Source of the DNA: Phocaeicola dorei
Lineage (GTDB): Bacteria > Bacteroidota > Bacteroidia > Bacteroidales > Bacteroidaceae
Length of the DNA: 64,000 bases
Assembly (NCBI RefSeq): GCF_013009555.1
Contig: NZ_CP046176.1
Span: 3,565,501 to 3,629,500 of the forward strand
Reading direction: 5' to 3'
Shown: in pieces, positions 4,734 through 22,151 of the stretch
Position numbering within the stretch: position 1 is the first letter of the stretch
Layout of the letters: the number at the start of each line of letters is the position of its first letter
Program-made: the position numbers and the translations under genes
The notes under the pieces: model-generated
Told to the model about the DNA's origin: nothing
Databases searched by the model: none
The model's input: the letters and a program-made list of their open reading frames with translations, nothing else

Positions 4734-6526
4734 TTAACATTGGCTTGTAGCCAAAGTGATTTTGTCAGGAACCATGTTAACATAATCCCTGCACCCGTTA
4801 AAGATATTTTTGAAAAAAGTTCCGATGAAGTTCCAGATAGAACTGCCATGAAGCTTTACCGTTCCAATCACACTGTGATAGGTTGCCGCCATCTCAGCAC
4901 CAGCATCACTACCATAATGAAGTGAATTGTTGCGTTGAGTAGTCAGCTTTCGAATGGTTCGCTCAGCCAGGTTGTTGTCTATTGGTAATTCACCATCATC
5001 CAAGTAAGCAAAGATCTCTTTCCAGAACCGGTTCAGATAATTGAGAGCTTCTTATAATACTGACTTCTAAATTCTGAATCCTTTGTCAGTTCACTATCTA
5101 ACAAGCTGCGCAACTCTATCAGAAGTTCCTTCGTTGCCAGGCTTTGCCTTTCTTGAAACCTTTCTTTTGGAGTTAATCCGGCATCATCGTATTTACGATC
5201 CCTCATAAAGAACTCCTTTAAAATTTCGGAAAAGCGTTCTGCATTCGGTTCACTACCCTGATTGGAAGCCTTGACAAACTTGTTCTTGGCATGTGACATA
5301 CAAACTTGGTGTACAGTATCTTTAAACCGGCCTGATTTCAGCTCATTGCCGATAAATACATAAGCATTGTATCCGTCGGACATAATACTCTTCAATTCTG
5401 CATCGCCCAAAAAGTCTGTTAGTACATCACGACCACGCGAGCCATTCTCATAGAAGAAAATGGCTGTTTTCTGAGCCTTGTTGACCAGAACCCAAATGTA
5501 GCACTTCTTATAGTGATCGTATTTGCGCACTTTACACCAGGTCTCATCGCAGTTCACTATCGAATCTTTTTCCAAAGCTATAGACTTCAATACACAAACC
5601 AGTTCGTCCAGGTATGTCTTACCTTTCTTAAGCCAGTTGCGCAACGTGTTTTTAGAAATGGTCATGCCCATATCTGTCAGCCATTGGTGAAGAAGACCAA
5701 AAGTCACATTCTTTACATAAACTTCATAGGCAATAGCCTGCAGAAATTCAGGAGCAGCCTTAGTACCTTCAAAACTGGTTACTACCTCAGGATGACCCTC
5801 GGAAGGGAAATAACCCCACTTGGGCTTTTTACCAGGCTCTGCATAATGAACCATCTCGAAGCATTCTTCCATCAAGAAAGTACGAAAACTGAATACCCGT
5901 ACCATTCTTCTTTCAATGATGCGACCGGGAAACTTTGTCAAATCGGAAGGATGCTCTATCGCCTCTCCAACTACTCCCATCCTTTTATAACCGTCAGGGC
6001 GATTGGATAAATCACGCTCTTTCTTGGAAGACTCTTTTACCTCTTGAGATGGAGCATGACCAACCGAATCCGTACGAAGCGTATCATCGGTTCCATCATA
6101 ATCATCTTTCTCCTTCCAGCGGTCTGAATCACTTGTTTTAGCTTTAGATTGTATCTTTTGACGTCTATCACCAAAACGTTCCTGATGGGCATAATCAAGT
6201 CTTTCCTGAAGTGATTTAATCTTACGTTCAGCCGATTTGCGAAGTTTATGCTCTTCCGATAACCGATTCTCAAGGTCAGCATGTTTCGATTCCATAGAGG
6301 ACACCTGAGCCTTCAGATCTTTCATCTGAGCCATAAAATCCTCCAAAACAAGCTTCATGGCATCACTTGTCAACCTTAAATCCTGATTCTGTTCGGCAAG
6401 GTATTGTATGTACCGCTCTTTCTGATCCTCTGCCATACCTGCACTATAATTTATAGGGTTGCGTGAGTAGGTTTCCCTACTCAACAACTCTCGTTTTGTT
6501 GTAATTATATCTTGCAGATCGATCAT
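4734..6526 (-). pseudogene. tnpC: IS66 transposase TnpC, frameshifted
   Basis: The first 497 codons contain the N-terminal coiled coil (about 45-115), the linker, and a DDE core with Asp327 (VNCDETW) and Asp384 (IMSDGYNAY). The frame then ends at TGA near 5033. Restoring one A near 5050-5053 continues the protein through YYKEALNYLNRFWKEIF into the second frame (DDGELPIDNNLAERTIR), which carries the catalytic Glu and runs to 4734. The break therefore cuts the third DDE residue away from the first two. A programmed frameshift is not usual at this site in IS66, so this copy looks inactive unless the base is a sequencing error. Confidence 0.85.
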
Positions 6527-6598
6527 ACTTAAACATTTGATTTACAACATTAAAGGTAATAAAATAATCGCAAAACCGCAAGTGGATAAATAGATTGA

Positions 6599-6934
6599 TT
6601 ATCTGATTTGTAATGTTTTAACTATAGGATTCTCAAGAATCAAAACCACGTCCTTCCAGGCAATCCGATAAACAGTATCTGCCCCGTTCCGCTCCACCTT
6701 CATGAACTGATAGCCTGCCACAAACTTCTTTTCGAACAGACTATATGAACGATTATCAAATGAAAACATACGGACTATTCTGCGATTGCGAGACATGACT
6801 ATAAAGACGTCTCCATCATTGGGCTCACGGTGAAGCCGTTCACGAATGACAGACAGCACACGGCTGTGTTTACAACGCATATCGGTAAAATCACGGACAT
6901 AATAAAAATGATTCAGACCGGTAACACTCAACAT
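6599..6934 (-). CDS. tnpB: IS66 accessory protein TnpB
   Basis: A 111-residue IS66 Orf2-like protein with the family PNDGDVFIVMSRNRRIVRMF stretch near residues 38-57. Family members are needed for efficient IS66 transposition but have no settled biochemical role. The start overlaps the end of tnpA by 7 bp, which suggests translational coupling. The gene is intact although the downstream transposase is not. Confidence 0.85.
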   Translation of the reverse strand: MLSVTGLNHFYYVRDFTDMRCKHSRVLSVIRERLHREPNDGDVFIVMSRNRRIVRMFSFDNRSYSLFEKKFVAGYQFMKVERNGADTVYRIAWKDVVLILENPIVKTLQIR

Positions 6935-7379: not shown

Positions 7380-8261
7380 TCATTTCAGATGAATCTTGAA
7401 ATAAATGCCGCCGGAGAAGTATTTGCAACGGTTCAATTCTATTACAGCGTTGATGTAGTCTTTCCAAAAGCTGTATTCCATACCTACATTCATTTGATAT
7501 TTCGGTCCATTGGGATTGAATGTCAAGTCCTCTTTCACATCTGTATAACCAGGAACAACCTCAGCCATTAAATTGACACCATTAACAGCTTTTCTTATCC
7601 ATGAATCATTCTCTTTCAAATGGAAACAAAAGTTCACGCCCATAGCAGGATTATTCAGTTTATTGTCGAAACGGTTGCTGTATATCCACGATATGTGCGC
7701 ACCTAACGTACCTATATTATCAAAATTGACATGTTTGGTTATTGCCAGATAATAACGATTCCAAAAGCCATTACCATAGTCTTGATTCTGCTGATTGGAT
7801 AGGGAACCACCATTCGCCGAATCACCTATCGCATCATTGGCACCTATCACCACTTGAGGCGTCCATGGTTTCCACCAATCTTCCTTCCACACCCGTAAGC
7901 GAAAATGAAAAGAACGGTCCTGATTGGTGAACTTGCTATACGTAGATGGCACCCAATAGCCGGAGTTATTGCCATAATCCGTAGGAACTGCCTTATGACC
8001 AGTACACAGATATCCGGCTTCCAGCCAAGGAAAAATAGTTATATTGATATAATAGTTCCATGTATCATACCACCAACGGGGTACTGTAGCATGATGATTC
8101 AGCCAGTTACCACCTACCATAAAAGTCTTGTCACGCTGCATGTCGGCAGTAGGAAGATTCATCAATCCCGTCGTGCCATAATTTATTTGAGCCGTTGCCC
8201 CCTGTACTATCCACAAAAACAAACCGGCAAGACAACATCTTCCTATTTTCATATTCCTCAT
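7380..8261 (-). CDS. YjbH-family outer-membrane protein of the polysaccharide locus
   Basis: A 293-residue secreted protein. A signal peptide ends near residue 24 (IVQGATAQ). It is followed by the YjbH opening (INYGTTGLMNLPTADMQRDK) and alternating aromatic-rich beta strands typical of an outer-membrane barrel. YjbH proteins in Proteobacteria belong to an exopolysaccharide secretion operon; here it is the last gene of the minus-strand locus. It overlaps the preceding small membrane gene by 4 bp, so it is probably cotranscribed. A role in polysaccharide export or surface anchoring is inferred from family and position. Confidence 0.7.
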   Translation of the reverse strand: MRNMKIGRCCLAGLFLWIVQGATAQINYGTTGLMNLPTADMQRDKTFMVGGNWLNHHATVPRWWYDTWNYYINITIFPWLEAGYLCTGHKAVPTDYGNNSGYWVPSTYSKFTNQDRSFHFRLRVWKEDWWKPWTPQVVIGANDAIGDSANGGSLSNQQNQDYGNGFWNRYYLAITKHVNFDNIGTLGAHISWIYSNRFDNKLNNPAMGVNFCFHLKENDSWIRKAVNGVNLMAEVVPGYTDVKEDLTFNPNGPKYQMNVGMEYSFWKDYINAVIELNRCKYFSGGIYFKIHLK

Positions 8262-8533
8262 TCTTCGAACTTATTTTTTAACCGATACCGCTTCCACTTC
8301 TTTTTCTCTTCATGTTTCATCATCATCAACATCAATTTTACGTCCATAAAAAGAAAGTAAGTGCTACCCACCATCAATGGCAGCCACCAACCATATTCCT
8401 GCCAGACAGGCATCTCGTTTACCGCATAGTATACTCCTGCCACCCCCAGCCAAAACAGCAGGGTAAGGGCCAGCATACGTTTCCATATCAGTTTTACTGC
8501 AAAATGATAAAGGCGGAAAGAAGGAACAATCAT
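8258..8533 (-). CDS. Small two-helix membrane protein of the capsule locus
   Basis: A 91-residue protein with two hydrophobic segments (about 19-37 and 49-68) and a strongly basic tail (KHEEKKKWKRYRLKNK). I do not recognise a family. It is joined by 4-bp start-stop overlaps to both the WecA-like gene before it and the yjbH-like gene after it. Translational coupling and a role in the same membrane machinery are therefore likely, but unproven. Confidence 0.65.
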   Translation of the reverse strand: MIVPSFRLYHFAVKLIWKRMLALTLLFWLGVAGVYYAVNEMPVWQEYGWWLPLMVGSTYFLFMDVKLMLMMMKHEEKKKWKRYRLKNKFEE

Positions 8534-9636
8534 ATTTGGGAAATATTGCGTCGTGAAATCAACTTACTGATATAAAGATTCATCAGTGTCCATACGGCCA
8601 CATCACAGAGGAACAGCACCGTATTGTTCAGATAGCTTACCAGAAACACATTGGAGGCACAAAACAAAAACGAAATGCATAGAATGGAAATCATCGCTTT
8701 ACGCGGTGTGAATCCCATGGCAAGAAACTTGTGATGAATATGTGTCTTATCCGGCATAAAGGGGTCTTTGCCACGACGTACACGGCCTAGAACCACCCTT
8801 ACCACATCCAGGCAGGGAACTAACAATACACTGAAAGATATCAATATGGCACCTTCATAATTAAAACCCGCCTCATACGTATTCATAGTGTATTGCACTG
8901 CCAGGAAACTTAATATATAGCCCAAGGTAAGACTTCCAGTATCTCCCATAAAGATTTTCCGTCCCCTGTCCGCATTTCCAAATACATTATAAAAAAAGAA
9001 CGGAAGCAACACTCCCACGGTAGTAAAAGCCAGCAATGCACTCATCCATCTGTCATCAATGACAGCCAGTGTGCCAAAGACGGACAATGCTACCATACTC
9101 AGTCCCGATGCCAGACCGTCAATGCCGTCTATTAGGTTGATTGCATTGGTGATAAAAATCACGAGCACCAAGGTAAGAGGAACACCGATGAAAGGAGAAA
9201 CCGCATGAATACCGAATAGCCCATAAAAATCATTGATGTACAATCCTGCCAACGGGAACATAGAAGCGGCAATCAACTGTACCAGAAACTTCTGACGATA
9301 GCGAACCCCTATCAAATCATCCGCAATACCCACAATGAACAGCAAGGTCAACCCCGTGCACATAAACAGAATTTGTACCCAATGCCGCGCTATGTCCACC
9401 AAGGAGACCCATCTTGTCATATAACAGATCCCTATCAGAAAAGTGCCAGTAAACAGGATAACGGGGAAAAAAGAAATTCCACCCAGCCGAGATACCGGTC
9501 TTTTGTGCACCTTCCGTGCGTCCGGAGTATCAAACAGACGTTTACGAAGAGAAATGATTAAAATACGGGGAATAATGATACGGGCAAGGACTACGGCTAT
9601 CAGAAAACCGCAGAATACTACTACAATATTCAACAT
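8530..9636 (-). CDS. WecA/MraY-type undecaprenyl-phosphate sugar-1-phosphate transferase
   Basis: A polytopic protein of 368 residues. Family motifs appear in order: VHKRPVSRLGG (43-53), the Asp pair in GIADDLIG (106-107), NAINLIDGIDG (164-174), MGDTGS (230-235) and THIHHK (298-303). The HIHH motif groups it with WecA/TagO-like enzymes that move a HexNAc-1-phosphate from UDP-sugar onto undecaprenyl phosphate. It would start repeat-unit synthesis at the inner membrane. Placement near the distal end of the locus is usual for Bacteroides capsule operons. The exact sugar cannot be read from sequence. Confidence 0.88.
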   Translation of the reverse strand: MLNIVVVFCGFLIAVVLARIIIPRILIISLRKRLFDTPDARKVHKRPVSRLGGISFFPVILFTGTFLIGICYMTRWVSLVDIARHWVQILFMCTGLTLLFIVGIADDLIGVRYRQKFLVQLIAASMFPLAGLYINDFYGLFGIHAVSPFIGVPLTLVLVIFITNAINLIDGIDGLASGLSMVALSVFGTLAVIDDRWMSALLAFTTVGVLLPFFFYNVFGNADRGRKIFMGDTGSLTLGYILSFLAVQYTMNTYEAGFNYEGAILISFSVLLVPCLDVVRVVLGRVRRGKDPFMPDKTHIHHKFLAMGFTPRKAMISILCISFLFCASNVFLVSYLNNTVLFLCDVAVWTLMNLYISKLISRRNISQI

Positions 9637-9747
9637 AATAAATCAGCTTGTTTTTTAAGTCTAGAATAAAATGAATGCTGCCTATGGAAGCACATAAAGC
9701 TTATAAAACCTTCATAAATAGATCTTTACAAGACAAAGTAATAAAAG

Positions 9748-10046
9748 TTATTTGAATAATTGACTTGCGGAATACACCCGAAGTATCAATATATATTGTT
9801 TAAACGAATCCCTAAAATTTATTATATCAATTTTGAAATGCATAAGTTTCTCCAACTCCTCTTTTATCTTTTCCAAAGTAAAAAATCAGATTTCTGAAGA
9901 GTGACAAATACATCCAAATCACTTGCCTCATCCTGTTGATTCCAAGCAAATGAGCCAAAAATCCCAAAAGGTTTAATTCCATATTTATAAGCGGAATCCT
10001 TTTTCAATCTTTTTAGAATAGATATAATTTCTATTGTACTCTTCAT
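9748..10046 (-). pseudogene. MNT-type nucleotidyltransferase, frameshifted
   Basis: From ATG 10046 the frame encodes the start of a minimal nucleotidyltransferase (GIFGSFAWNQQ, then SDLDVFV) and stops after 60 residues. Adding one base to the T6 run (plus-strand A run 9880-9885) restores TLEKIKEELEKLMHFKIDII and continues to TAA 9748-9750, about 99 residues in total, the normal family size. No HEPN partner lies beside it. It sits between a capsule glycosyltransferase and the WecA-like gene, an odd place for such a gene. Sequencing error in the homopolymer is the alternative. Confidence 0.75.
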
Positions 10047-10117
10047 TTTCTTATAACTGATGTTTCTTGCAAGGAAAAGAAATAGCTTCCTGTTTTCCCA
10101 ATAAAATGCAGATTTTC

Positions 10118-10894
10118 CTAACGGCTTACTGATTTATGCAGCAAAAGTTCCCCCACCTTATATATATACCTAATTCCCAAAAGAAACACATTGGTATAAA
10201 TGCCATTTTCACGGAACGCACGTAGATGCTCTTTCATAATCCATTTGTGTGAAACTACTCCCGAAGTACTGACTCCGCCCATTCGCATCGTCACCATATC
10301 TATCGGCAAGTATTTTATGCTGATATTGCCTTTATAAATCACTCGAAGTAGAAACTCAAAATCTGCTGCAATCCGATAATCCGTCTTATAACAACCGAAC
10401 TTTCCAAAATATTTCCTTCGCAAATAAAAGGAAGGATGAGCAGGCATAAAACCAAAACGCATCAGTTTCCTTTTAAACACCTTCGAAGAATAATAGCGGA
10501 CGCATTTATCCAACTTATCCGGATGTACAAAATGAACATCACCATAAACGGCTGCCAAGCGGTCATCCGTTTCAAAAGCCCGTACCACCTGTGCCAGCAC
10601 ATCTTTTCCGGTAAAGAAATCATCCGAATTAAGAATGCCCACCACATCACCGGTAGCCATCCTGATTCCTTTGTTCATGGCATCATAAAGTCCTTTATCC
10701 GGTTCGGAGATCCATCTTAAACGCCCGTTAAACTTCGGTTCGTATTCCTTGAGGACATCGATTGTGTGGTCTTTGGAAACACCATCTACAATGATGTATT
10801 CTATATCAAGGTGAGTTTGAGAAAGGACAGATTGAAGGGTGGAAAAAAGTGTGTTGCCGCTGTTGTAAGTGACGGTAATGAGAGAGATTGTCAT
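10118..10894 (-). CDS. GT2-family glycosyltransferase
   Basis: A 258-residue GT-A enzyme. The opening beta strand ISLITVTYNS (3-12), the motif EPDKGLYDAMNKG (64-76) and the NSDD metal-binding motif (89-92) place it with WcaA-like GT2 sugar transferases. A basic, hydrophobic C terminus suggests membrane association. Donor and acceptor are unknown. Its start overlaps the end of licD by 4 bp, so the two are likely cotranscribed and translationally coupled. Confidence 0.85.
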   Translation of the reverse strand: MTISLITVTYNSGNTLFSTLQSVLSQTHLDIEYIIVDGVSKDHTIDVLKEYEPKFNGRLRWISEPDKGLYDAMNKGIRMATGDVVGILNSDDFFTGKDVLAQVVRAFETDDRLAAVYGDVHFVHPDKLDKCVRYYSSKVFKRKLMRFGFMPAHPSFYLRRKYFGKFGCYKTDYRIAADFEFLLRVIYKGNISIKYLPIDMVTMRMGGVSTSGVVSHKWIMKEHLRAFRENGIYTNVFLLGIRYIYKVGELLLHKSVSR

Positions 10895-11604
10895 TCTTCT
10901 ATTTGTGGTAATAATTGTCCTAAGTTTTTATTCAATCTCATGCAGCATTTAGTATATAATGCTCTTTCTGATCTTTTTGCAATTAAAGAAAAAAGCCAAT
11001 CGGGCAAAACATCTTTTAAATGCTCTTTTACATTAAACATTGCAATTTTCCATTTGGGCATTTGATAATTATTCCATTGTAACGGAATGCGCCAATCTGC
11101 GCCGTACTCCCCCACCAAATACTCTTCATAATCTAACGGAACAGGAAAAGATATTCCCTTAAATTCTATTTGAGCTGTATTTATAAGATGCTTTTCTACA
11201 TTTACCCAACCTGAACAAATCCTATATCCTTCCTGCCAAGGACGATAAAAATAGAAATCAATATATTCGCCTTTTCTCATAACAGAAAGAAGATCTCGTC
11301 TATCATAACGACAAACTCGAAATCCCATTTTCATCAAGTCAGGCAATATATTCCAAAGAGCATTACGGTCTTCATCGAGAAAAGCAAGATCAATATCCTC
11401 GTCATGGTCTATAAAATCATGTTCACGAACAACTCCCAACAGAGTTCCGAAAGCTAGCTGAAATTTAATCCCGTTAGCATCCAATATAGATTTAAGAAGA
11501 CATAAGTTTTCAAATGCGATTTCCTTATCAATACGCTTTACACCTGGAAAAAGAGGAATGGTCTTATAACGAATAGCCCCATGAGAAGTCATAACACTAG
11601 GCAT
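10891..11604 (-). CDS. licD: LicD-family phosphotransferase
   Basis: A 237-residue LicD/fukutin-type protein. The signature GTLLGVVREHDFIDHDEDID spans residues 53-72 and carries the acidic residues thought to bind metal. LicD proteins move phosphocholine, or in relatives other phospho-alcohols, from a CDP donor onto a glycan. This locus also encodes a LicC-like cytidylyltransferase (16653-18464), a plausible source of the donor. It overlaps the following glycosyltransferase by 4 bp and starts 3 bp after the preceding one. The transferred group is inferred, not shown. Confidence 0.85.
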   Translation of the reverse strand: MPSVMTSHGAIRYKTIPLFPGVKRIDKEIAFENLCLLKSILDANGIKFQLAFGTLLGVVREHDFIDHDEDIDLAFLDEDRNALWNILPDLMKMGFRVCRYDRRDLLSVMRKGEYIDFYFYRPWQEGYRICSGWVNVEKHLINTAQIEFKGISFPVPLDYEEYLVGEYGADWRIPLQWNNYQMPKWKIAMFNVKEHLKDVLPDWLFSLIAKRSERALYTKCCMRLNKNLGQLLPQIEE

Positions 11605-11607
11605 AAT

Positions 11608-12534
11608 TTACCTCCTAATAATTTTCTTAACAGCATTCTTCCACACAAACGGGAACAGTTGCTTGATCCTATTAAACAATGTATTGTTACTATGATAAAA
11701 AGCCTTTTCAAATGGTATATAAGGAACCACATATTGCGGGTGGTTCAAAGGGAATTCTATATCCTTATGAGAAATATAACAAGAAGGAATGTTTCCTTGA
11801 GAAGTATGTGTTGCTTCAGCCCCAAAACCTATATTCGTTATCAGGCTATATTGAGGATAAATGCCAAGCATATTATGAGCTGCCATGGTAAAATACCATT
11901 GCCAGTCCCATGCACTCACATCATTGCAATCGATAGCCTTCATACGATATTTCCAATAGCGTACATCCTTTGCCTTATATCCCATATTCCTTATGATCGA
12001 ATCTTCATAAGCACTCTCTCGCCAATTCATATTCAAATCCATCAATTTCCATGCGCGTTTCCAAGTAGCCCATCCGTTAGTGGATTTATATCTGCTAAAT
12101 CCATAAGAATGTGGAATGGATATATTTTGTCGATAATTAGCTGCGTCAATCATTCCAATACGGTAATCATCCTTATAACGCACCAACAATTCTTCCGCAA
12201 AAGGATAAAAAGAATCTCGGAGCACACAATCATCTTCTATTATAATACCTTTATCCTCATTATCAAACAACCAATTTATGGCAGAATAAACTCCCACACA
12301 ACAACCAAGATTCTCTTTTTGAAATAGAGTATGAATCTCACAATCCCAATCTACCGCTTTCAAAATAGCCTGCCGAGTATCTTCCACTTTCTTGGCTTCA
12401 CCTTGTATATAAGAACGGGGACCATCACCAGCAACATAGAGTTTTTTAGGTTGTATCTTACGAATAGATTCAAAACTTTTAAGCGCAACATCTTTGCGTT
12501 TGAAAATAATAAATAGAATAGGAATGTTATACAT
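11608..12534 (-). CDS. GT-A-fold glycosyltransferase
   Basis: A 308-residue protein whose N-terminal strand IPILFIIFKRKDVALKS and acidic motif IIEDDCVL (Glu100-Asp101-Asp102) mark a nucleotide-diphospho-sugar transferase fold. The middle contains a Trp-rich STNGWATWKRAWK stretch also found in Bacteroides capsule transferases of this type. It is AT-rich like its neighbours and separated from both by only 3 bp. Donor and linkage are unknown. Confidence 0.75.
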   Translation of the reverse strand: MYNIPILFIIFKRKDVALKSFESIRKIQPKKLYVAGDGPRSYIQGEAKKVEDTRQAILKAVDWDCEIHTLFQKENLGCCVGVYSAINWLFDNEDKGIIIEDDCVLRDSFYPFAEELLVRYKDDYRIGMIDAANYRQNISIPHSYGFSRYKSTNGWATWKRAWKLMDLNMNWRESAYEDSIIRNMGYKAKDVRYWKYRMKAIDCNDVSAWDWQWYFTMAAHNMLGIYPQYSLITNIGFGAEATHTSQGNIPSCYISHKDIEFPLNHPQYVVPYIPFEKAFYHSNNTLFNRIKQLFPFVWKNAVKKIIRR

Positions 12535-12537
12535 AAC

Positions 12538-13428
12538 TTACCGCTTTTTTATTTCATCAATACGACGTTTACATTCATGAACAGCTTTATAAAAATTTAA
12601 ATTAATCTGATTCTTCAATCTTATTCTATTAAAGAAATACACAAACTCAAACAATGAAATCCTCTTTTCGAGACATTCTATCTCATCCAAATTATTTTTA
12701 CGATAATAATACAACTCTGAATCTAACGTCATTCTAAACTCATCATAAGAAAAAGATCTTTCTCCTGCTAAATGGAAATAATTCATATTCTTGTCAAAAG
12801 TTATTTCATATCCACTGTTTCTCAACCTTCGATTCAAGTCTTTCTCTTCACAATACATAAAAATCTTTTCATCAAACATGCCTATTTTTACAAATGGCTG
12901 CTTGCAAATAAAAAAACACGAACCATTTATATACATATCGCGGTTATCAAACTTAGATAATTTATTATATATACGAGATTTTATAGCGCATAAAAAAGGA
13001 TGCAAAAATGAATATGAAGGGTCAACATCAAACGATAAACCTTCTTTTCCTTTGTTATACCACTGTTTCATTCCCAATAAAGCTACTTCCTTATTAGAAT
13101 CAAAATAGTTTACCGCTTTTTTAAACAAAGGCTCTACCATTCTTACATCTGGATTCATTATCAGAATAATATCTCCCAAACTATTCTTTACTCCCATGTT
13201 ATTACCTTGACCATAACCACCATTTTTAGGATTATCTATCAATTTAGTTTGAGGATATAATCGATTAATAGACTCAAACATCAAATCTTTATTGCAACTA
13301 TTATTATCTACAATTATAACTTCTAATAAATCTCCAATATCATTATAACGATAAATTGAAGATAAACAATCATAAATGTGTTTCTCTGAATTATAGGTTA
13401 CAATAATAACAGAAACTCTCTTATGCAT
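12538..13428 (-). CDS. GT2-family glycosyltransferase, rhamnosyltransferase-like
   Basis: The protein opens with VSVIIVTYNSEKHIYDCLSS, then VDNNSC, the NNMGV motif and the metal-binding region MNPDVRM, followed by NGSCFFI, the layout of rhamnosyltransferase-like GT2 enzymes. I use the Met at 13428 (MHKRVSVII). Upstream Met codons at 13431 and 13455 would add a hydrophobic leader that lies inside the polymerase gene. Overlap with that gene is 8 bp with the chosen start. The substrate is unknown. Confidence 0.82.
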   Translation of the reverse strand: MHKRVSVIIVTYNSEKHIYDCLSSIYRYNDIGDLLEVIIVDNNSCNKDLMFESINRLYPQTKLIDNPKNGGYGQGNNMGVKNSLGDIILIMNPDVRMVEPLFKKAVNYFDSNKEVALLGMKQWYNKGKEGLSFDVDPSYSFLHPFLCAIKSRIYNKLSKFDNRDMYINGSCFFICKQPFVKIGMFDEKIFMYCEEKDLNRRLRNSGYEITFDKNMNYFHLAGERSFSYDEFRMTLDSELYYYRKNNLDEIECLEKRISLFEFVYFFNRIRLKNQINLNFYKAVHECKRRIDEIKKR

Positions 13429-14515
13429 CATATATAATTCTAATAAAAAAAACAAACTGAATGGTTACAGTACATAAGTATAATAAAGCACCTGATTTTC
13501 TATCTAAATATCTTTCAAACAAAATGTATAAAAGGAAGATAGAATAAATTAGGAAATAATCGGTGATACGTGAAATTTGCTCTATAGAATAAAACAAGGC
13601 AGTTCCTAACAAACCTACTAAATAAACATTTAAAGCTTTATAATATAAAATATTATTTGTCTTATAATGGATAAAAAACCATCCGATCACAAAATAAAAA
13701 ACACCTCTATACGGAATTGCATACGTTAGTTTATATAGTTCGTCTAGATAATAGGAATATTTAGCTAAATCTGTACCATCAAACATCCCAAATACAGATA
13801 TAATGCCCCCCAACAATATAGAAACGACATAAGGACTTAAACGTAAAATAAATATCAAAAACAATAGATTCCAAATAATAATATATATTTTAGAAGATTT
13901 TCGTCCCCCTATCCTATATATAACACAGGCAACAATACCTAAAAAAGAAGAATAATGGAAAGACAATGCAACAACAAAAAAACATCCTGCAAAAAACAAA
14001 TCTTTATAATTAAGCTGTGACTTAGATAAAAGAGAGGTTGCTAATAGTAAAATCGATAATGCAAGCCCAGCTCTGACAACTATGGCATTGTAAAACATTC
14101 CAAAAAATGAACTATAGAGAACCAAGAATAAAACTGAATTTAGCTTTTTATTATCTGGAGTATGCCATTTTCCCCAATTATTTAATGCGAAATAAATGAA
14201 TACATAATTAGTCAATGCTAAGAGAAAGAAATAGCCATTAAGATTTCCTCCTGCAATCTTTTTTAAAAAATGCGTATAATATTGAAAACCCGGTTCAAAT
14301 GAAAATAGCGAGATAGAAGACAAATCAAAAGCGGTAATTCCCGAATATAAAGCTGCATAGTTTTCAGTATCTTGAACAGAAAAATCACGTAATCCTATAA
14401 CAACAGATAGCATGGCAGCTATTATCCAATATATTTTATTATACCACCTATGGGGAGTATAAAATGAACAGGATACGCCCAATAACAATAGAAAAAAAAG
14501 TAGAGTTAAATTCAT
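13421..14515 (-). CDS. EpsG/Wzy-like polysaccharide polymerase
   Basis: A 364-residue protein with about ten hydrophobic segments and the EpsG-type features: an N-terminal helix, then GLRDFSVQDTENYAALYSG, and a long periplasmic-side region before the last helices. Proteins of this kind polymerise lipid-linked repeat units at the outer face of the inner membrane. Each locus has its own highly divergent version, so similarity is weak. It is very AT-rich, as is common for acquired capsule genes. Confidence 0.75.
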   Translation of the reverse strand: MNLTLLFFLLLLGVSCSFYTPHRWYNKIYWIIAAMLSVVIGLRDFSVQDTENYAALYSGITAFDLSSISLFSFEPGFQYYTHFLKKIAGGNLNGYFFLLALTNYVFIYFALNNWGKWHTPDNKKLNSVLFLVLYSSFFGMFYNAIVVRAGLALSILLLATSLLSKSQLNYKDLFFAGCFFVVALSFHYSSFLGIVACVIYRIGGRKSSKIYIIIWNLLFLIFILRLSPYVVSILLGGIISVFGMFDGTDLAKYSYYLDELYKLTYAIPYRGVFYFVIGWFFIHYKTNNILYYKALNVYLVGLLGTALFYSIEQISRITDYFLIYSIFLLYILFERYLDRKSGALLYLCTVTIQFVFFIRIIYDA

Positions 14516-14527
14516 AAGAAATTATTC

Positions 14528-15151
14528 TTATTCAATTTGGCGAATCACTCGACCTGGATTTCCTACAACAATTGAATTTCGAGGTACATCTTTTGTAACA
14601 ACTGTATTTGCACCAATTACACTGTTTTGTCCAATCTTTACATTAGGTAAAATAACACACCCTTCTCCTATCCAAACATTATCCTCTATTATAATATTAC
14701 CCTTAGAATATAATCTGCGCTCAATTGCTACCTTTTTTATATCTGTTTTATTTAATTTGCCATGAGAATGGTCAGAAATAAAAATATGACTTCCCAACAG
14801 TACATTATTACCAATTTTAAGTTGTCCTATTACGCCTATATGAACATCATTCCCCATTGCTACATTATCACCAATAATTATTGAAGGAGTATAATTTACG
14901 CCTTGATATAAATCTATCGCTTCTATCCGCCCCCGTTCACGCAAACTAAATTTGTCACCTATTAAAATATTCTTTCCACCATTTAAAATTAATGGATAAC
15001 AAAAACGCCCACCTTTTCCTATTGATTTGAAATGACATCTTACAATAGAAGAATATATTACATTTCTCAGATGCCATACTTCATGCATAATTTTCTCTGT
15101 AAAAACGAAAGATAACAGAAAACCTATAAAATTCAATAAAAACCTAAACAT
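14528..15151 (-). CDS. Left-handed beta-helix acyltransferase
   Basis: A 207-residue protein with a hydrophobic N terminus (about 4-18) and repeated hexapeptides forming a left-handed beta-helix (IIIGDNVAMGNDVHIG, IIIEDNVWIGEGCVILPN). It ends with the characteristic ANTVVTKDVPRNSIVVGNPG region. The SDHSHG stretch supplies a likely catalytic His. Such enzymes usually transfer acetyl groups from acetyl-CoA to sugars. It overlaps the flippase gene by 8 bp. Probably it O-acetylates the repeat unit. Confidence 0.85.
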   Translation of the reverse strand: MFRFLLNFIGFLLSFVFTEKIMHEVWHLRNVIYSSIVRCHFKSIGKGGRFCYPLILNGGKNILIGDKFSLRERGRIEAIDLYQGVNYTPSIIIGDNVAMGNDVHIGVIGQLKIGNNVLLGSHIFISDHSHGKLNKTDIKKVAIERRLYSKGNIIIEDNVWIGEGCVILPNVKIGQNSVIGANTVVTKDVPRNSIVVGNPGRVIRQIE

Positions 15152-16577
15152 ATTTTGTTATTGTTGAAAATATATACATGCATACAGAATTCTTTAATTT
15201 GCATTGGATCAATATATACCCTACCCATGCTATAAAAGAATAAAGAATGAACCATAAAAAATTCTTTTCCATACTCCCCAAAAACATACAGACATAGACC
15301 AAAGGAAAAATAAATGAAGCACAACACGATTTTTTTAAGCACCGCCAACTTATTGAATATAATTTCAATTTATATACATAATAAACACATGTAGCAGAAA
15401 CCATTATTTCACCTATTACAGAAGCCCACGCAGCACCACGAGCTCCCATGGAAGGTATTAATATAACATTAAATAAAAGATTAAAGATGACGCCACAGAC
15501 TGTTGCAATCAAATATCTTGATTCAAAAGAAGCTGTTGTCATTACCTGTATCCCTAAAAAATAAGAAAAGTTACTGACTACAAATAATACTGAACATATT
15601 CTTAGGGGCAATGTAGCTTCCCCAAAAGACTGACCAAAGAAGAATAGAATAAACAAATCAGCAATACAAAGGAAATAAGCCATTAATGGCCAAGAGCAAA
15701 AATTAATAACGTCAAAAGCACAATCCAACATTTTTCTATATTCAACGACATTGCCTATATTGTTGCAATAAGACAAACGAGGTAGCATAACCATTCCCAA
15801 AGATGTCATAATAGGCATTAGTATTCTAACAGATTTTATTGCTGATGAATATATGCCCAGTTCATAGAATGAAGACATAAATCCTAACATTACTGTATCT
15901 ATCATCAAATAAATCTGCATAGCAAGGGAAGAGAAGAAAAATAAAACGAGTCCTTTTAAATTTACTTTACAGTCGCTTAAATCCAATCGAATAGAGAACC
16001 CTTCTTTTATAAAAAAGTAGATGTTTATTATATAATTAATTAAAAAAGTCAGAGAGTTAAGTAGTACGTAAATAATTAAATCACTTTTGTTTTTCACTAA
16101 ACATAACAATCCTATCAATAAAACTAATTTTACAAATACGGAACGGAGGGAAATCAATTTAAATTTCTCCAATCCACTATAAAACCAATTTATGTCTAAT
16201 GCTGAAAAATAAAGAGGAATTCCTGCTATGAACAGCAAACACCTTATTTCGGTCAATTGTTGAATGCCAAACAGAGATAATAAAAAAATAAATGACACAA
16301 ATATCGATGAAATAATATTTATTGTAAACAACCGATTAAATAATCGATTACAAGATCGTTTATTGTCTTTTAATTTAGCTATTTCTCTACTTCCAAAAAG
16401 CGTCTTGCCTAAAGCCGCAAATAACACAAAATATTCAACCAAGGTTGTTACAAAACTGAATTCTCCAATCTGATCAACGCCTAAAATCCGACTTACATAT
16501 GGAATTGTAATTATTGGGAAAGCTATGTTTGAGATATTTAAGAGTATATTATATAGAAAATTTTTCTTTATTGACAT
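15144..16577 (-). CDS. Wzx-type polysaccharide flippase
   Basis: A 477-residue polytopic protein of the MATE/MOP superfamily. The family opening NFLYNILLNISNIAFPIITIPYVSRILG occupies residues 6-33 and about twelve to fourteen membrane helices follow. Wzx proteins move undecaprenyl-linked repeat units across the inner membrane, so with the Wzy-like polymerase this defines a Wzx/Wzy-dependent pathway. AT content is as high as in the polymerase. A 75-bp gap separates it from the cytidylyltransferase fusion upstream. Confidence 0.88.
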   Translation of the reverse strand: MSIKKNFLYNILLNISNIAFPIITIPYVSRILGVDQIGEFSFVTTLVEYFVLFAALGKTLFGSREIAKLKDNKRSCNRLFNRLFTINIISSIFVSFIFLLSLFGIQQLTEIRCLLFIAGIPLYFSALDINWFYSGLEKFKLISLRSVFVKLVLLIGLLCLVKNKSDLIIYVLLNSLTFLINYIINIYFFIKEGFSIRLDLSDCKVNLKGLVLFFFSSLAMQIYLMIDTVMLGFMSSFYELGIYSSAIKSVRILMPIMTSLGMVMLPRLSYCNNIGNVVEYRKMLDCAFDVINFCSWPLMAYFLCIADLFILFFFGQSFGEATLPLRICSVLFVVSNFSYFLGIQVMTTASFESRYLIATVCGVIFNLLFNVILIPSMGARGAAWASVIGEIMVSATCVYYVYKLKLYSISWRCLKKSCCASFIFPLVYVCMFLGSMEKNFLWFILYSFIAWVGYILIQCKLKNSVCMYIFSTITKYV

Positions 16578-16652
16578 AAGCTAAGCAATCATCTGTTTAT
16601 ACAGTAAAGAAGACTCTTATCTATTAGAAAAAATTAAAGATGCAGTCTTTCA

Positions 16653-18464
16653 CTAGAGATCAAAACTGGCTAAAATGCTAATCAAACGATTATTTTCATC
16701 CCTATTCTTCACCGCTATACGGATATAATTCTTTCCTCCAAAAGCTTTCTTCGTCCCGCAATCCTTTATCAGGATATTCCGATCCAAAAGCAACCTACTC
16801 AACTCGGCAGAAGTATATTTACCGGTAATCTCACATAAGAAATAGTTCGCCTGAGAAGGAATCACACGCAAAAATGATATATCCTGCAAAGAAAGAAAAA
16901 AACGGTTACGTTCCTGCAAGAACTTGCCGCACGCTTTCTTGTAGTCCGATTCATATTTACCGAATATCTGCATATAAAACTCTGCAAATGAATTTATGTT
17001 CCAAATGGAAACATCTTTTTTGAGGAAAGCGACCAACGACTTATCGGAACTTGCCAATACCCCCAAACGCAGTCCGGGAACGCCATAGGACTTGGAAATA
17101 CTCTTCATCACCACCAAGTGAGGATATTGTTCTAGAATTTCATTATACAGCAAGGAACTGTTCAGGCCATCCTCCGCAAAATCAACAAAAGATTCGTCCA
17201 CTATCAGACGGATGGAGCGGAAACCTGCCCATTCGCACAAGGAAAGAAGCTCGGTATATGGAATGAAATTGCCGGATGGATTATCAGGATTGACTATCAA
17301 CAAGGAATCTATCTTCTTGTCCGAATAATAAGACATGACATCCGAAGCCCTATAGGAGAAATCAGGATTGGAAGGAATATAGACAACCACCTCCTGCTTG
17401 TTACATCTGTTAGGATACTCTTCGAATGTGGGATATATCACACCTATGGTACCCGGCAAATATTCCATCAGGCTCTTTATTAGTTCTGCAGCACCATTGC
17501 CCACACAAACATAATCTGGGTTCACCCCAAAATATTTCCCTATCAAAAGGCTGTTGACGGACATTCCTGAGGGATATTCCGTCAGCAGGACATCAAAGTT
17601 CGCCTTGATTTCGTCACGCATACGTTGGGTAGGGAAAAAGGGGTTAACCAAATAGCAATAATCCAGCAAAGCAGGAAAACGCCAATATCCTCCATAGCGT
17701 TTCTGGTAACGGGACAATTTGATGACCGAATTCGCAAAAAGGGTCTCCGCAATGTCCAAGTCCTGAACATCGTCTATCTCATACCATTTCTGCCCGTCCA
17801 ACGGCAAAGCCTTCAACTCGCACTTATCCAGCAAGGTAATTACCCGAAGGACCTGTTCATAATATTCATTGTTACCCAACGCTTTCGTATAGGCTTCCAA
17901 AAATGGAACGTAATGGGTACGTGAAAACTCCTTGCTGAACTTATAGATATTGACCGTCTTGTAATAACAATCCACATCACTGTACTTGAAAGCTTTCTTA
18001 GGAATGAAATTTACAATGTTGTTTTCATCGTCCAAACGAACCATGGTACCGTCCATCCAAGTTTCATACTTGGCGACCAAAGCCAAGTTGGGATAAGGAT
18101 CATTCAATATCATCGGGAACAAAGTATCATCAAAAATCAAGTCAGATTCAATCAGCAATGTATCATCCTCTTGAAGTTCCTTTTTCGCCAAAGAAAGTGA
18201 ATAGATATTGTTTGTCTTGTCATAAATGGAATTTTCGATATATTGAATAGGTAATCCCTGATAATCAAAACCTAAATATTCTTTTAATTTTTCGCCTTTA
18301 TAACCGATTACTAATATGACTTTTGACAATGGAAAATGAGATAATTGTCCCAAAACACGATCTATCAATGGAATGCCATTCACTTTAACCATACATTTTG
18401 TATTATCTTTGGTCAGGTTTCCCAAACGCTTGCCCATTCCGGCTGCTAATATAATTGCTTGCAT
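16653..18464 (-). CDS. LicC-like cytidylyltransferase fused to a PLP-dependent aminotransferase-fold enzyme
   Basis: A 603-residue fusion. The N-terminal part (1-245) has the nucleotidyltransferase loop LAAGMGKRL (6-14), the LicC-like NNIYSL (85-90) and IESD with Asp108. These suggest CTP-dependent activation of a phospho-alcohol or phosphonate. The C-terminal part (about 255-603) is a class I/II PLP enzyme: NPDNPSG (392-398), VDES (422-425), the Schiff-base Lys458 in SISKSYG and Arg466. It looks most like the HisC/CobD branch, which includes a phospho-amino-acid decarboxylase. Fusions of such cytidylyltransferases to a transaminase are known from phosphonate pathways (PntC of Treponema). With LicD in the same locus, a CDP-activated amino-alcohol for glycan decoration is a reasonable inference. 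The substrate is not proven. Confidence 0.85.
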   Translation of the reverse strand: MQAIILAAGMGKRLGNLTKDNTKCMVKVNGIPLIDRVLGQLSHFPLSKVILVIGYKGEKLKEYLGFDYQGLPIQYIENSIYDKTNNIYSLSLAKKELQEDDTLLIESDLIFDDTLFPMILNDPYPNLALVAKYETWMDGTMVRLDDENNIVNFIPKKAFKYSDVDCYYKTVNIYKFSKEFSRTHYVPFLEAYTKALGNNEYYEQVLRVITLLDKCELKALPLDGQKWYEIDDVQDLDIAETLFANSVIKLSRYQKRYGGYWRFPALLDYCYLVNPFFPTQRMRDEIKANFDVLLTEYPSGMSVNSLLIGKYFGVNPDYVCVGNGAAELIKSLMEYLPGTIGVIYPTFEEYPNRCNKQEVVVYIPSNPDFSYRASDVMSYYSDKKIDSLLIVNPDNPSGNFIPYTELLSLCEWAGFRSIRLIVDESFVDFAEDGLNSSLLYNEILEQYPHLVVMKSISKSYGVPGLRLGVLASSDKSLVAFLKKDVSIWNINSFAEFYMQIFGKYESDYKKACGKFLQERNRFFLSLQDISFLRVIPSQANYFLCEITGKYTSAELSRLLLDRNILIKDCGTKKAFGGKNYIRIAVKNRDENNRLISILASFDL

Positions 18465-18857: not shown

Positions 18858-19691
18858 CTAATCAATTTTTTCAAACGGAAACGCATGAAGATAGCTCACT
18901 GCCACCGTCATATTGCCAAAAGCGAATACCAGCCTTGTATTGCGGTGCAAACGCATGATACATCCCTCTTTCCCCCGAAAGACACCACCGGTAATACGGA
19001 TTCGTTGCTTTTTCTGAAGATAGTCCTCCAAAGGCCGGTTCATCAGCTCGATATTGTAAGGCATGGATTCATACAGATAGATAAATTCTTCCATCTGACG
19101 TTGAGGAATTACCGCCGCACGGTGTGTGTTATAGTCCGTCACCAGATACTGGCGGGGAAGCATGGCAGACAGAATACATTCCAACTGCCCCAAAGGGGCA
19201 CATACAAACAGCCAACCGTTGCCTTCAATCCCTTTCTCGTTCGTCAACGTATTCAGTTTCTGAGTGGAGCCGGTAGCAAAAGCCTCTTTCACCACCCGGG
19301 CAGAGTCACGGCGAGCGGTATATTCCTCTTTGGTATAAGCACATTGCTCGAAACGTTTCCTATGATCGGTGGCAGTGTAAGAAAACACCTTGAAGCAAAA
19401 AAATCTCTCTTCTACGGTACCTGATGGTGTACGAAGCCGAACAGCTTTCCTGCCACTGAAAACACTGATATAGCGTTTCAGTTCTTTGTTGGAAAGATAC
19501 AGATAATACCAGCCGAGTTCAGGGTATTCTTTTCCTATTCCCGCCATTGGCGTGATTCCTTCATTTGACCCCAGGTCTGAGCCGGAAGCGATTGAACTGC
19601 AGAGCAGTAACTTAGGCGCTTCGCCCGTTATGTCTTGATTTGAAAGGAACGCTTGATTTTCAAGCTCCATACTATTTTCTGTTACCATCAA
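18858..19691 (-). CDS. upxY: UpxY-like NusG-family transcription antiterminator
   Basis: A 277-residue protein, the first gene of the minus-strand capsule locus. The C-terminal part resembles a KOW domain (KQRIRITGGVFRGKEGCI, about 229-246). A NusG-N-like region starts around GWYYLYLSNKELKRY (about 60). Bacteroides UpxY proteins let RNA polymerase pass early terminators in their own capsule operon. This one has about 58 extra N-terminal residues and is divergent. No upxZ gene follows. The start (MMVTENS) lies 14 bp from the invertible promoter region, which is expected to control it. Confidence 0.72.
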   Translation of the reverse strand: MMVTENSMELENQAFLSNQDITGEAPKLLLCSSIASGSDLGSNEGITPMAGIGKEYPELGWYYLYLSNKELKRYISVFSGRKAVRLRTPSGTVEERFFCFKVFSYTATDHRKRFEQCAYTKEEYTARRDSARVVKEAFATGSTQKLNTLTNEKGIEGNGWLFVCAPLGQLECILSAMLPRQYLVTDYNTHRAAVIPQRQMEEFIYLYESMPYNIELMNRPLEDYLQKKQRIRITGGVFRGKEGCIMRLHRNTRLVFAFGNMTVAVSYLHAFPFEKID

Positions 19692-19705
19692 AACATTACT
19701 TTTTA

Positions 19706-19756
19706 TATATGTCTTTTTGGGGTTCTCTTAGTAAGAGAACCCCAAAAAGACATATA
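19706..19756. repeat. 51-bp perfect palindrome spanning the left invertible-promoter repeat
   Basis: Arms of 25 bases (19706-19730 and 19732-19756) are exact reverse complements around G19731. The outer 12 bases of the right arm belong to the invertible segment while those of the left arm lie outside it. The full-length palindrome should therefore exist only in the present orientation. It would make a long hairpin just before upxY. Confidence 0.85.
19718..19744 (+). repeat. Left inverted repeat of the capsule promoter switch
   Basis: A 27-bp repeat with core GTTCTCTTAGTAAGAGAAC. It matches the right repeat in inverted orientation at 26 of 27 positions, including the asymmetric centre base. 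Confidence 0.85.
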
Positions 19757-19853
19757 CTGCTGACAATAAGATATTTACGAATAATCAGAGATGGATAATT
19801 TGCAAACAAATATCATAAGAATCCTTATCAGAGACTGATTCCTGAATAAAAGA

Positions 19854-19885
19854 TTTCCGTATTTGAATTATTATAGCTACATTTG
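19854..19885 (+). promoter_or_regulatory. Bacteroidetes-type promoter inside the invertible segment
   Basis: TACATTTG (19878-19885) fits the -7 consensus TAnnTTTG. A near-consensus TTTC lies 20 bases upstream in place of the -33 TTTG. The direction is rightward, toward the convergent end of the glycosidase operon, where no plus-strand gene follows. Confidence 0.7.
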
Positions 19886-19893
19886 CAACGGAA

Positions 19894-19920
19894 TGGGGTT
19901 CTCTTACTAAGAGAACTCCA
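19894..19920 (-). repeat. Right inverted repeat of the capsule promoter switch
   Basis: The reverse complement of this 27-bp element differs from the left repeat at only one position. A run of eight T follows outside at 19921-19928, so with its hairpin it could also terminate rightward transcripts made in the OFF state. Confidence 0.85.
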
Positions 19921-20030
19921 TTTTTTTTATTCTAACAGATTCATTTTCAAGATAGATCCAAGAAAGACCAAAAAGGAACACATAAATTCCTTTTCCGCAC
20001 TCATTAAAAGAACAAATGATAAAACGCAAA

Positions 20031-20066
20031 AGCGGCCACTTACGATAAAAATCGAAAGTGACCGCT
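20031..20066 (-). terminator. Terminator of the CBM9/GH29 operon
   Basis: Arms of 11 bases (AGCGGCCACTT and AAGTGACCGCT) match at 10 of 11 positions. On the minus strand the hairpin follows the glycosidase stop codon by about 45 bases and is succeeded by T-rich sequence. It also separates this operon from the capsule switch. Nothing else is evident in 19929-20111. Confidence 0.65.
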
Positions 20067-20111
20067 AAAAAGAGATTTATTTCTCTAATATAAGGATCTA
20101 ACAGTACGGAG

Positions 20112-22151
20112 TTACTTCACCACAAATCCTCTCTTATCCAAATAAGCTTTGAATTTATGCAAATATTCTTCATCCGGACCATCAAAGAAGGATACACCGG
20201 ATGCCCCGTTATTGTACGCTTCATCCAGCGCCTCTTCAAAATTGTCCTTAATATCACCAAACATCAGTCCGGCATATATCTTGGCACGCCCATTCACCGT
20301 TTCAACGCTTTCCTTTACCGAACGCCCGATCCATTCAGGACCTTCATAATAGAATTTATTATAAATCATCGGATAATAAGCATCCAGCGTCCATTCTCCC
20401 CAATCTTGGCGCACCATCTTGCGAGCCATGGACGGTCCCGGGAACACTGCGGCAGAAATAGCTTTATGATCGGCTTTCACCGCTTTGGTAATGGCATCCA
20501 CCACACGAGTGATGGCATCCAGACGGAAATTGATCCAACTCTGGTTTTCCATCGGATACTTTAATTCCAACGGATCCTGTCCTGTTTTAGCTTTAAACAA
20601 TTCACGGCAGACATCACAATAACAATAGTCATATTCCGGCAACTCTTCTTTCTGCTCTATACCATAGTTTTTCCATAAGCTGACAGGCAAGATTACATCC
20701 GGCATACGGACATAATCCAGATGAACACCATCCACATAAGGCTTATGGGCTTCCTTTACATAGTCTTCTGCCAGATACTCTGCCACACCTTGGTGATTAG
20801 GGCACAAGAAACGATAATAATCCACGTAGGCCGGTTTGTCGTGACAAGACTCGCCTTTACGGTTCACGGCATACCAGTCGGGATGCTTGTTCAGCAGTTC
20901 CCTGCGGTTCATCGTCCATTTCCAATAATGCGCCTCCAATCCGGCTTCTTTGCAGAGGCGGTAAATATTCTCATTGTATCCCTCGAACATGACACCCGAA
21001 ATACCACATTCTTTCAACAACGCAAACCACTTTTGCCATTCGGCATCCGAACGGTTATTCAGACGCATCCACAACCAATTTTTAACTTCACGGGCAGGTA
21101 TCTTTTCTGTCCGGAAACGTCCTTCATTATTGATCACATAACGGACTCCTTCAACAGGATTGGTTATAGCTATCTGATACGTGTTCTGAGTCGCCTCCAC
21201 CGCAATCCGGGCATCAGCCGGAAGATCTTTCAACTCTTTATCAGTCAAAAAGAATTGTTCTGTGGCACGCAGATAATTATGTTGTTTACTATAATTATCC
21301 TGTTGTGCGTAGAACATGGCCCACAGCAATTTATAAATGGCCTGATTGTACGGGTAAACCAACTCATCTTGCGAGGTTCCCACTTTCTTGTCTACGAAAT
21401 AAAGATATCCCCAACGGTCGGGCATGTGCATATCGATTCTTCCGGTAGGAGTCCATACCCAATTTTCCTCGGGTCCTTTCTCCTTCAGCCACTGTACACG
21501 CGAAAAGTTGATGCGCCAGGTATTGCCAGCCTTCAACGGATTGTTAAAGTTCATGGTCAGCGCCTGATGAGGAATGGCCATTTCCACACTCCAATACTTA
21601 TCTTTATCTTTTGATTTATTCAGTGTACCTTCACAATGGATGGCAGTCTTCAATCCGGGGCAGTCCCATTGCACCATGAAATTTCCACCCGAACGATAAG
21701 GTTTGTCCAGCATCAGATCGAAAATCACGCCACGCGCATTGGTTTCTATTTCAAAATAATTGTGTCCGTCGCTATCCGGATCAATAAACACTTCAAAGTC
21801 ATTGTCATAATAGATGATGGTATCACGCTGGGTAAGACGCGCCTTGATATCCTCTTCTTGAAGAACAGCTCCTACATATAAAAATTCATCATCCCACAGC
21901 ATCTTGGCGGTAGTTTCATATTTGGGAGTCGGGAATCCTTCTCCGCTTATATCTACAAACGGGGCAGTAGACGCCGCCTTATTCCAGGAACTTTCATTCA
22001 GTTTACCATCTATTTTCAACTTTCCATCCGGACGATAACATACATAAGTACGCGGTTCGGTCAGAAAACGCTCATATTGTTCAAAAAGGCTTTGTGCCAT
22101 TGCCGGAAAAGTAACCAGCAGAAGTAACAGGGTATAAATAAGTTTCTTCAT
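20112..22151 (-). CDS. Secreted CBM9-like domain plus putative glycoside hydrolase
   Basis: A 679-residue protein with a signal peptide ending after PAMAQ (residue 20). Residues about 30-260 resemble a CBM9-type carbohydrate-binding domain (KIDGKLNESSWNKA, DDEFLYVGA, DNDFEVFIDPDSDGHNYFE). The C-terminal half (about 350-679) looks like a family-10-like (GHL10) TIM-barrel hydrolase: GISGVMFEGYN, YVDGVHLDYVRMPD and DAYYPMIYNKFYYEG. Two CxxC pairs near CYCDVCRELF are notable. It lies 18 bp behind the GH29 gene and is probably cotranscribed. The substrate is unknown. Confidence 0.75.
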   Translation of the reverse strand: MKKLIYTLLLLLVTFPAMAQSLFEQYERFLTEPRTYVCYRPDGKLKIDGKLNESSWNKAASTAPFVDISGEGFPTPKYETTAKMLWDDEFLYVGAVLQEEDIKARLTQRDTIIYYDNDFEVFIDPDSDGHNYFEIETNARGVIFDLMLDKPYRSGGNFMVQWDCPGLKTAIHCEGTLNKSKDKDKYWSVEMAIPHQALTMNFNNPLKAGNTWRINFSRVQWLKEKGPEENWVWTPTGRIDMHMPDRWGYLYFVDKKVGTSQDELVYPYNQAIYKLLWAMFYAQQDNYSKQHNYLRATEQFFLTDKELKDLPADARIAVEATQNTYQIAITNPVEGVRYVINNEGRFRTEKIPAREVKNWLWMRLNNRSDAEWQKWFALLKECGISGVMFEGYNENIYRLCKEAGLEAHYWKWTMNRRELLNKHPDWYAVNRKGESCHDKPAYVDYYRFLCPNHQGVAEYLAEDYVKEAHKPYVDGVHLDYVRMPDVILPVSLWKNYGIEQKEELPEYDYCYCDVCRELFKAKTGQDPLELKYPMENQSWINFRLDAITRVVDAITKAVKADHKAISAAVFPGPSMARKMVRQDWGEWTLDAYYPMIYNKFYYEGPEWIGRSVKESVETVNGRAKIYAGLMFGDIKDNFEEALDEAYNNGASGVSFFDGPDEEYLHKFKAYLDKRGFVVK

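Follow-up and report, generated by a model that had tools for sequence, protein, structure and literature searches.

The stretch of DNA analysed here (the window, 64,000 nucleotides) covers positions 3565501-3629500 of a complete one-contig genome (G000; 5,625,488 bp) that is close to Phocaeicola vulgatus and is taken here to be from a sister species. A capsule polysaccharide operon on the minus strand is headed by an upxY-like antiterminator gene, and the region between this gene and a glycoside-hydrolase-like neighbour holds a pair of inverted repeats with a promoter box between them (Table 1). One gene within the operon (11608-12534) had no Pfam match, and a plasmid search returned no match. 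At the far end of the operon, an IS66-type insertion (window 5033-6934) adjoins a partial YjbH match (7380-8261).

Table 1. Features of the capsule switch region, in window coordinates
Feature	Position	Strand	Remarks
Capsule/polysaccharide genes	8530..18464	-	nucleotidyl-/aminotransferase, flippase, acetyltransferase, EpsG, glycosyltransferases, LicD, WecA-like
upxY-like antiterminator gene	18858..19688	-	partial NF033644 match; relatives in named genomes
Perfect palindrome, 51 bp	19706-19756	.	left repeat extended, 25+1+25 bp
Left (gene-side) recombination site	19718..19744	.	27-bp palindromic inverted repeat, centre AGT
Putative invertible interior	19745..19893	.	149 bp; orientation compared with relatives
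-7 promoter box TACATTTG	19878..19885	+	points away from upxY (OFF)
Predicted intrinsic terminator	19890..19928	+	right site plus outside T8; would work in the OFF-promoter direction only
Right (distal) recombination site	19894..19920	.	26/27 complementary to left site; centre AGT on minus strand
T8 run	19921-19928		outside right repeat
Glycoside-hydrolase-like neighbour gene	20112..22151	-	3′ end toward OFF promoter

The upxY start codon is, by our reading, the ATG at 19688, and the ORF tool begins at a TTG at 19691. The UpxY model NF033644 matches residues 161-265, the C-terminal half only, at 50.8 bits, below its 100-bit cut-off; the protein has no Pfam match at 1e-3, and its AlphaFold model (mean pLDDT 39.5) is unusable for fold comparison. 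The C-terminal block is conserved and looks KOW-like, and both this block and the position of the gene appear to fit the UpxY family. Eight relatives were found in named genomes, the copy of ATCC 8482 being 100% identical over the best segment and the other seven 64-96%. Five of these eight loci have a site pair before the gene; none was found at L041, where 4 kb upstream were searched, or at L037 and L039, where the sequence ends close upstream. By visual inspection, TAATGTTTTGATG is conserved at the upxY start in the window (19678-19700) and at L034, L035, L036, L038 and L040, and it contains a minimal ATG-TTT-TGA frame overlapping the start codon.

The initial annotation had described two 27-bp inverted repeats around 149 bp, and re-measurement gave the same coordinates: the arms are 27 nt each, 96% complementary and 149 nt apart. 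The right palindrome extends over 19892-19922 (15+1+15, 93%). It had also described one perfect -7 box aimed away from upxY, which was confirmed by a scan of both strands of 19680-20112, where TACATTTG is the sole exact instance of TAnnTTTG, the Bacteroides -7 consensus as given in excerpts of PMC4747536. Four one-mismatch boxes occur in the same interval, one of them at 19750, and all lie on the minus strand, toward upxY. Inversion of the interior would carry the exact box to 19760-19753 on the minus strand. The proposed placement before upxY is thus sound; the distance is not, since about 64 nt rather than 50 would separate the box from the likely ATG. With 0.24 exact boxes expected by chance in 149 bp, a box by itself says little; it is the pairing of the sites that provides strong evidence.

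The window genome was searched for two occurrences of TCTTNNNAAGA spaced 155-185 nt apart, with the backwards pattern as control. Of the 12 matches to the forward pattern, 11 are real pairs, and the control had no match; the remaining one, at 5439773-5439965, was dropped, as it combines a real site with a non-matching core. The genome carries 11 switches of one site family, five of them before upxY-like genes. These five, the window's own and four whose genes are 67-93% identical to the window's gene, are the ones with AACCCC(A) arm ends. The six others have arms of the GATC/GATAT kind, five preceding proteins of about 162 aa and one a secreted-looking protein. An AraC-type helix-turn-helix was detected in both of the ~162-aa proteins tested, and the remaining three were assigned by sequence match; these AraC-type sister switches lie at G000:C1:18852, 206921, 278616, 403326 and 5439584 (L022, L023, L009, L024 and L010).

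A survey of 60 genomes of the genus, the window's included, yielded 63 pairs in 16 genomes (64 rows, the second site of L097 being the same locus as L098), and the backwards control gave none in all 60. The central three bases are identical between both sites in every one of the 63 pairs, and in every one a box stands 32-38 nt from one site end. Between loci, the centres vary (AGT, CAT, CGT, ATT, ACC, GAT, GGC, TGT, TCT, AAC, CGG and others). Furthermore, orthologues judged by eye from their flanks can have changed centres that still match within the pair, as with AGT in L010 and L067 versus GGT in L080, or CAT in L007 versus ATG in L086. Matching within the pair, even where orthologues differ, fits an exchange through an overlap that must match. 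We also considered a "centre code" that would separate loci; this idea was weakened, as AGT is common to many loci. In a survey of 60 genomes of the order, again including the window's, three genomes had pairs; outside the window genome there were seven pairs, six with identical centres. The pair at G087:C27:16319-16521, outside the genus, is the only one seen with non-identical centres (AAT versus ATT, reverse complements). Loci L025 and L026 were covered by the pattern scan only, and L111 is outside all counts.

The T8 run that the initial annotation placed outside the right repeat is present, and the right site together with this run folds at -20 kcal/mol, with none of 200 shuffles as good. 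A terminator scan of 19600-20200 reports this element as the only plus-strand candidate; the one minus-strand candidate is a 6-pair stem inside upxY (19665-19651), where 0.3 are expected per shuffle. Similar runs recur at the sister loci. A T-run of at least 6 within 16 nt outside the distal site is present at 10 of 14 upxY loci, which by eye form about seven orthologue groups (four with T6-T8) and as related loci are not independent, and at 15 of 31 AraC loci, where those with T7 are near-copies in G002 and G016. On the gene side such runs are found at 0/14 upxY and 0/31 AraC loci, and the background frequency is 1.1% (random) to 3.4% (near switches). Similarly, past the hairpin the OFF direction is richer in U at all 14 upxY loci and at 27 of the 31 AraC loci (three opposite, one tie). 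At least six U in eight were counted in the OFF versus the other direction at 9/14 versus 0/14 upxY loci, with L006 and L077 failing this count despite a T6, and at 17/31 versus 2/31 AraC loci. An inherited module or AT-rich chance, with no terminator function, could also have left T-runs at these positions: CATTTTTTATT recurs in the distal flanks of several loci, which makes these copies non-independent, and the run is shorter than six at 4/14 upxY and 16/31 AraC loci. However, runs of six or more are confined to the distal side, and the U-content favours the OFF direction at every upxY locus; we regard ancestry or chance as a possible but rather doubtful account of the runs.

Among the window genes searched, none is a recombinase neighbouring the switch. 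A candidate tyrosine recombinase of 400 aa (G000:C1:2181813-2183015; PF13102, PF00589, PF17293) stops some 360 bp short of the capsule switch at 2,183,376; a predicted enzyme with the R-K-R-H-Y residues adjoins the site family, at sister switches and not at the window locus. Residues R249, K275, R348, H371 and Y380 are kept in all 21 recombinases compared (truncated L022 excluded). Relatives with at least 40% identity over more than 200 aa lie near 18 of the 63 switches, counting truncated L022 and leaving a 28% identical match at L059 uncounted. In nine of ten genomes with a single switch, such a relative adjoins it; the tenth switch (G005) is at a contig edge. The recombinase by the 18,852 switch (L022:1781-2617; 278 aa) is without the C-terminal catalytic part that its relatives at L068 and L078 keep. 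The initial annotation had suggested a search of relatives for the same repeat and a co-occurring recombinase, and both were found: alongside the 63 pairs, all 16 switch-bearing genomes have a relative of the tyrosine recombinase at E 1e-40 or better, as do 29 of the 44 others. Close orthologues (90-100%) occur in exactly those four of the 60 genomes that have AACCCC-type sites; the G005 copy is 76% identical, and no inverted-repeat pair was found beside it. The P. sartorii copy is in two frame-shifted pieces, yet the sites are kept, and its 2.6-kb stretch gave no inverted-repeat pair beside the recombinase. When ten loci around the best recombinase matches (L112-L121) were searched for inverted repeats, three had the site family of the window switch. 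A different repeat, TCTTAGACAGAGGGA, with a promoter box accompanies the 52-53% identical recombinases of L117, L119, L120 and L121, the box being reversed in L121 relative to the other three; a short repeat lacking a box was seen at L118, and no repeat at L115 and L116.

These comparisons suggest that the enzyme is likely a tyrosine recombinase and not a serine recombinase of the Mpi type, and that the recombinase by the sister capsule switch may act in trans on the window sites, as their shared site sequence would allow. The genome does encode an Mpi-family serine invertase (G000:C1:5486879-5487487), of the class that flips B. fragilis capsule promoters; it is an intact 203-aa protein (NF009949, 328 bits versus a cut-off of 272), and the four genomes with AACCCC-type sites (G000, G011, G020 and G046) all have it at 98-100% identity. 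The argument for the enzyme is accordingly one of adjacency and not of co-occurrence, because the Mpi-like gene is confined to the same four genomes. Inversion of the window switch by this invertase is nevertheless improbable: 10 of the 16 genomes with the site family are without a relative at E 1e-40 or better (6/16 have one, as do 8/44 of the others), no switch has such a gene within 40 kb on its contig, and the surroundings of the invertase (L027) have no site pair of the window switch's family. In addition, the single-base palindrome centre would fit a 2-bp serine overlap poorly, bearing in mind that our search patterns fixed a three-base centre. The invertase itself (L027:6880-7491) sits between two large, similar, divergent genes that share inverted stretches and that we take to be SusC-like; invertase and flanking genes are perhaps a local gene-shuffling system.

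Evidence that the site family inverts comes from three orthologous switch sets in which both orientations were found: L005 ON versus L072 and L082 OFF, L007 ON versus L086 OFF, and L088 ON versus L110 OFF, orthology having been judged by gene identity and, by eye, by similarity of the interior. The initial annotation had called the window locus a phase-variable capsule promoter in its OFF state. The upxY-like and capsule context, the sisters of the same architecture and the occurrence of sisters both ways speak for this, but the window locus itself was seen in one orientation only, OFF in all three genomes where it was found (the window genome, ATCC 8482 and P. sartorii; window, L074 and L081). 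By analogy with its sisters, we infer that the window locus itself may flip. Orientation was scored for 53 pairs with an assigned gene side (10 of the 63 were left out for want of one), of which 48 are OFF and 5 ON. By class, the counts are 11 OFF and 3 ON for upxY, 31 OFF and 0 ON for AraC, and 6 OFF and 2 ON for the others, where for seven of these eight the gene side was that of the nearest reading frame, self-queried. The OFF bias of the AraC loci is far from even, in loci that are related and in assemblies that each show one state only. The OFF state in the window genome, ATCC 8482 and P. sartorii would also be expected of a relic locked OFF, with only its sisters still inverting. This is quite improbable, as both window sites have kept the full core and identical centres, and as the 48 of 53 scored switches that are OFF, the window's among them, include families seen both ways. 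Since most sisters are OFF, including families known in both orientations, OFF in three assemblies is not surprising.

The left site extends into the 51-bp palindrome, which the initial annotation had described as present in this orientation only and as a possible seal on the OFF state. The first part is correct: beyond AAGAG, the outer and inner flanks of the left repeat agree over 19 nt now and would agree over 7 nt if inverted. The flank match is 19 nt in the window genome, 17 in P. vulgatus ATCC 8482 and 10 in P. sartorii, and thus the full 51-bp length appears peculiar to the window genome and is not conserved in relatives. Within the outer arm (19706-19717), the window genome has one base that ATCC 8482 and P. 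sartorii do not share, and this base lengthens the palindrome; the single change is consistent with templated correction of a quasi-palindrome. We rejected the palindrome as a terminator: neither strand has a T-run behind it, and the scan gave no candidate at this position. That this hairpin seals upxY in the manner of CwpV in Clostridioides difficile is very improbable: it folds at -38.2 kcal/mol with none of 200 shuffles as good, an OFF-only intrinsic terminator was proposed for CwpV (excerpts of PMC2784873), and the number of B. fragilis repeats between promoter and EPS genes was inversely correlated with transcription (excerpts of PMC4747536), but against these stand the missing T-run and scan candidate, a 27-bp version of the hairpin that would persist in the ON state, a palindrome that is shorter in relatives, and a strand toward upxY on which 19680-20112 offers four one-mismatch boxes and no exact one, so that little may be left to seal. 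An OFF-only hairpin with a U-tract between promoter and gene, as in CwpV, was not found here; the terminator-like site is distal. The hairpin role thus appears to belong to the right repeat, with its meaning reversed: the predicted terminator faces the OFF promoter, away from upxY.

The references for Mpi and PhaseFinder are Coyne 2003 and Jiang 2019, respectively. The closest published case we found is the upxY promoter of P. vulgatus CL10, which was shown by PCR to occur in both orientations (PMC13114119, in extracts). Like the window switch, it has inverted repeats around a -7 box before the upxY of a polysaccharide locus. Unlike it, the CL10 switch belongs to another locus, on a predicted mobile element, is mostly ON, and has an upstream recombinase gene reported as defective, whereas the window switch is assembled OFF with none found locally; the comparison is one of architecture. 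The Mpi system of B. fragilis similarly has many capsule promoters per genome under one site family (extracts of PMC12632263 and PMC4747536), but Mpi is a serine recombinase and the evidence at the window family points to a tyrosine recombinase. Action at a distance is described for Tsr19/BF2766 of B. fragilis, a tyrosine recombinase that inverts a distant switch in addition to the one it adjoins (PMC4747536). The same extracts describe one of its switches as OFF-biased and report that repeats between promoter and gene lower expression; its two promoters serve an EPS operon and an outer-membrane gene cluster, whereas in the window genome up to five upxY loci are concerned. Capsule loci of Parabacteroides distasonis, B. 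xylanisolvens and B. thetaiotaomicron also have internally palindromic repeats and UpxY/NusG first genes, and in all three species these repeats adjoin tyrosine invertases or integrases (PMC12118408, as excerpted); they differ in their cores, for example GCTACTYRGNRAGTAGC, and in segments of about 290-345 bp in P. distasonis and B. xylanisolvens. The CwpV switch resembles ours in that its OFF terminator was proposed at a recombination-site junction (partial text of PMC2784873), but in C. difficile an outside promoter is kept from the gene by the terminator, whereas here the promoter is inside and the predicted terminator faces away from the gene. No report of a distal-side terminator was found in the titles and abstract openings among the literature matches listed, and the literature search returned no paper on a tyrosine recombinase with invertible capsular polysaccharide in Phocaeicola.

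Taken together, with a promoter box flanked by inverted repeats ahead of a capsule locus, the window switch appears to be an ordinary member of the Bacteroidales phase-variable capsule promoters, to which a predicted terminator is added as a detail. We propose, with considerable confidence, that the locus belongs to the invertible promoters of the Bacteroidales capsule type, that it is probably inverted in trans by a tyrosine recombinase, and that the OFF RNA would end at the right site and T8. The enzyme would most likely be that encoded at 2181813-2183015; it would align the two sites by an overlap, the shared central AGT being part of it, and then invert what lies between. Once ON, the promoter would fire toward upxY, giving an RNA that starts with the site hairpin and continues into an A-rich leader; with this leader behind the hairpin, the RNA should be read through. 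In the OFF state, the promoter would fire into the right site and T8, acting as an intrinsic terminator, and the RNA would end after about 40 nt, with no antisense run into the neighbour gene. The more specific proposal, that the site is a two-way part, a terminator where a T-run follows on the distal side and read-through where an A-rich stretch follows on the gene side, and that one tyrosine recombinase serves in trans both the window switch and four other capsule switches of the P. vulgatus group, seems to us evenly balanced between right and wrong.

Capsule switching shapes how P. vulgatus and closely related bacteria, which are common in the gut, deal with phage and host. With a candidate recombinase and 11 defined switches, this repertoire becomes testable by single deletions. 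If the site does act as a terminator, this would suggest how OFF promoters spare their neighbours antisense transcription, and it would provide a design rule for reading other invertible promoters.
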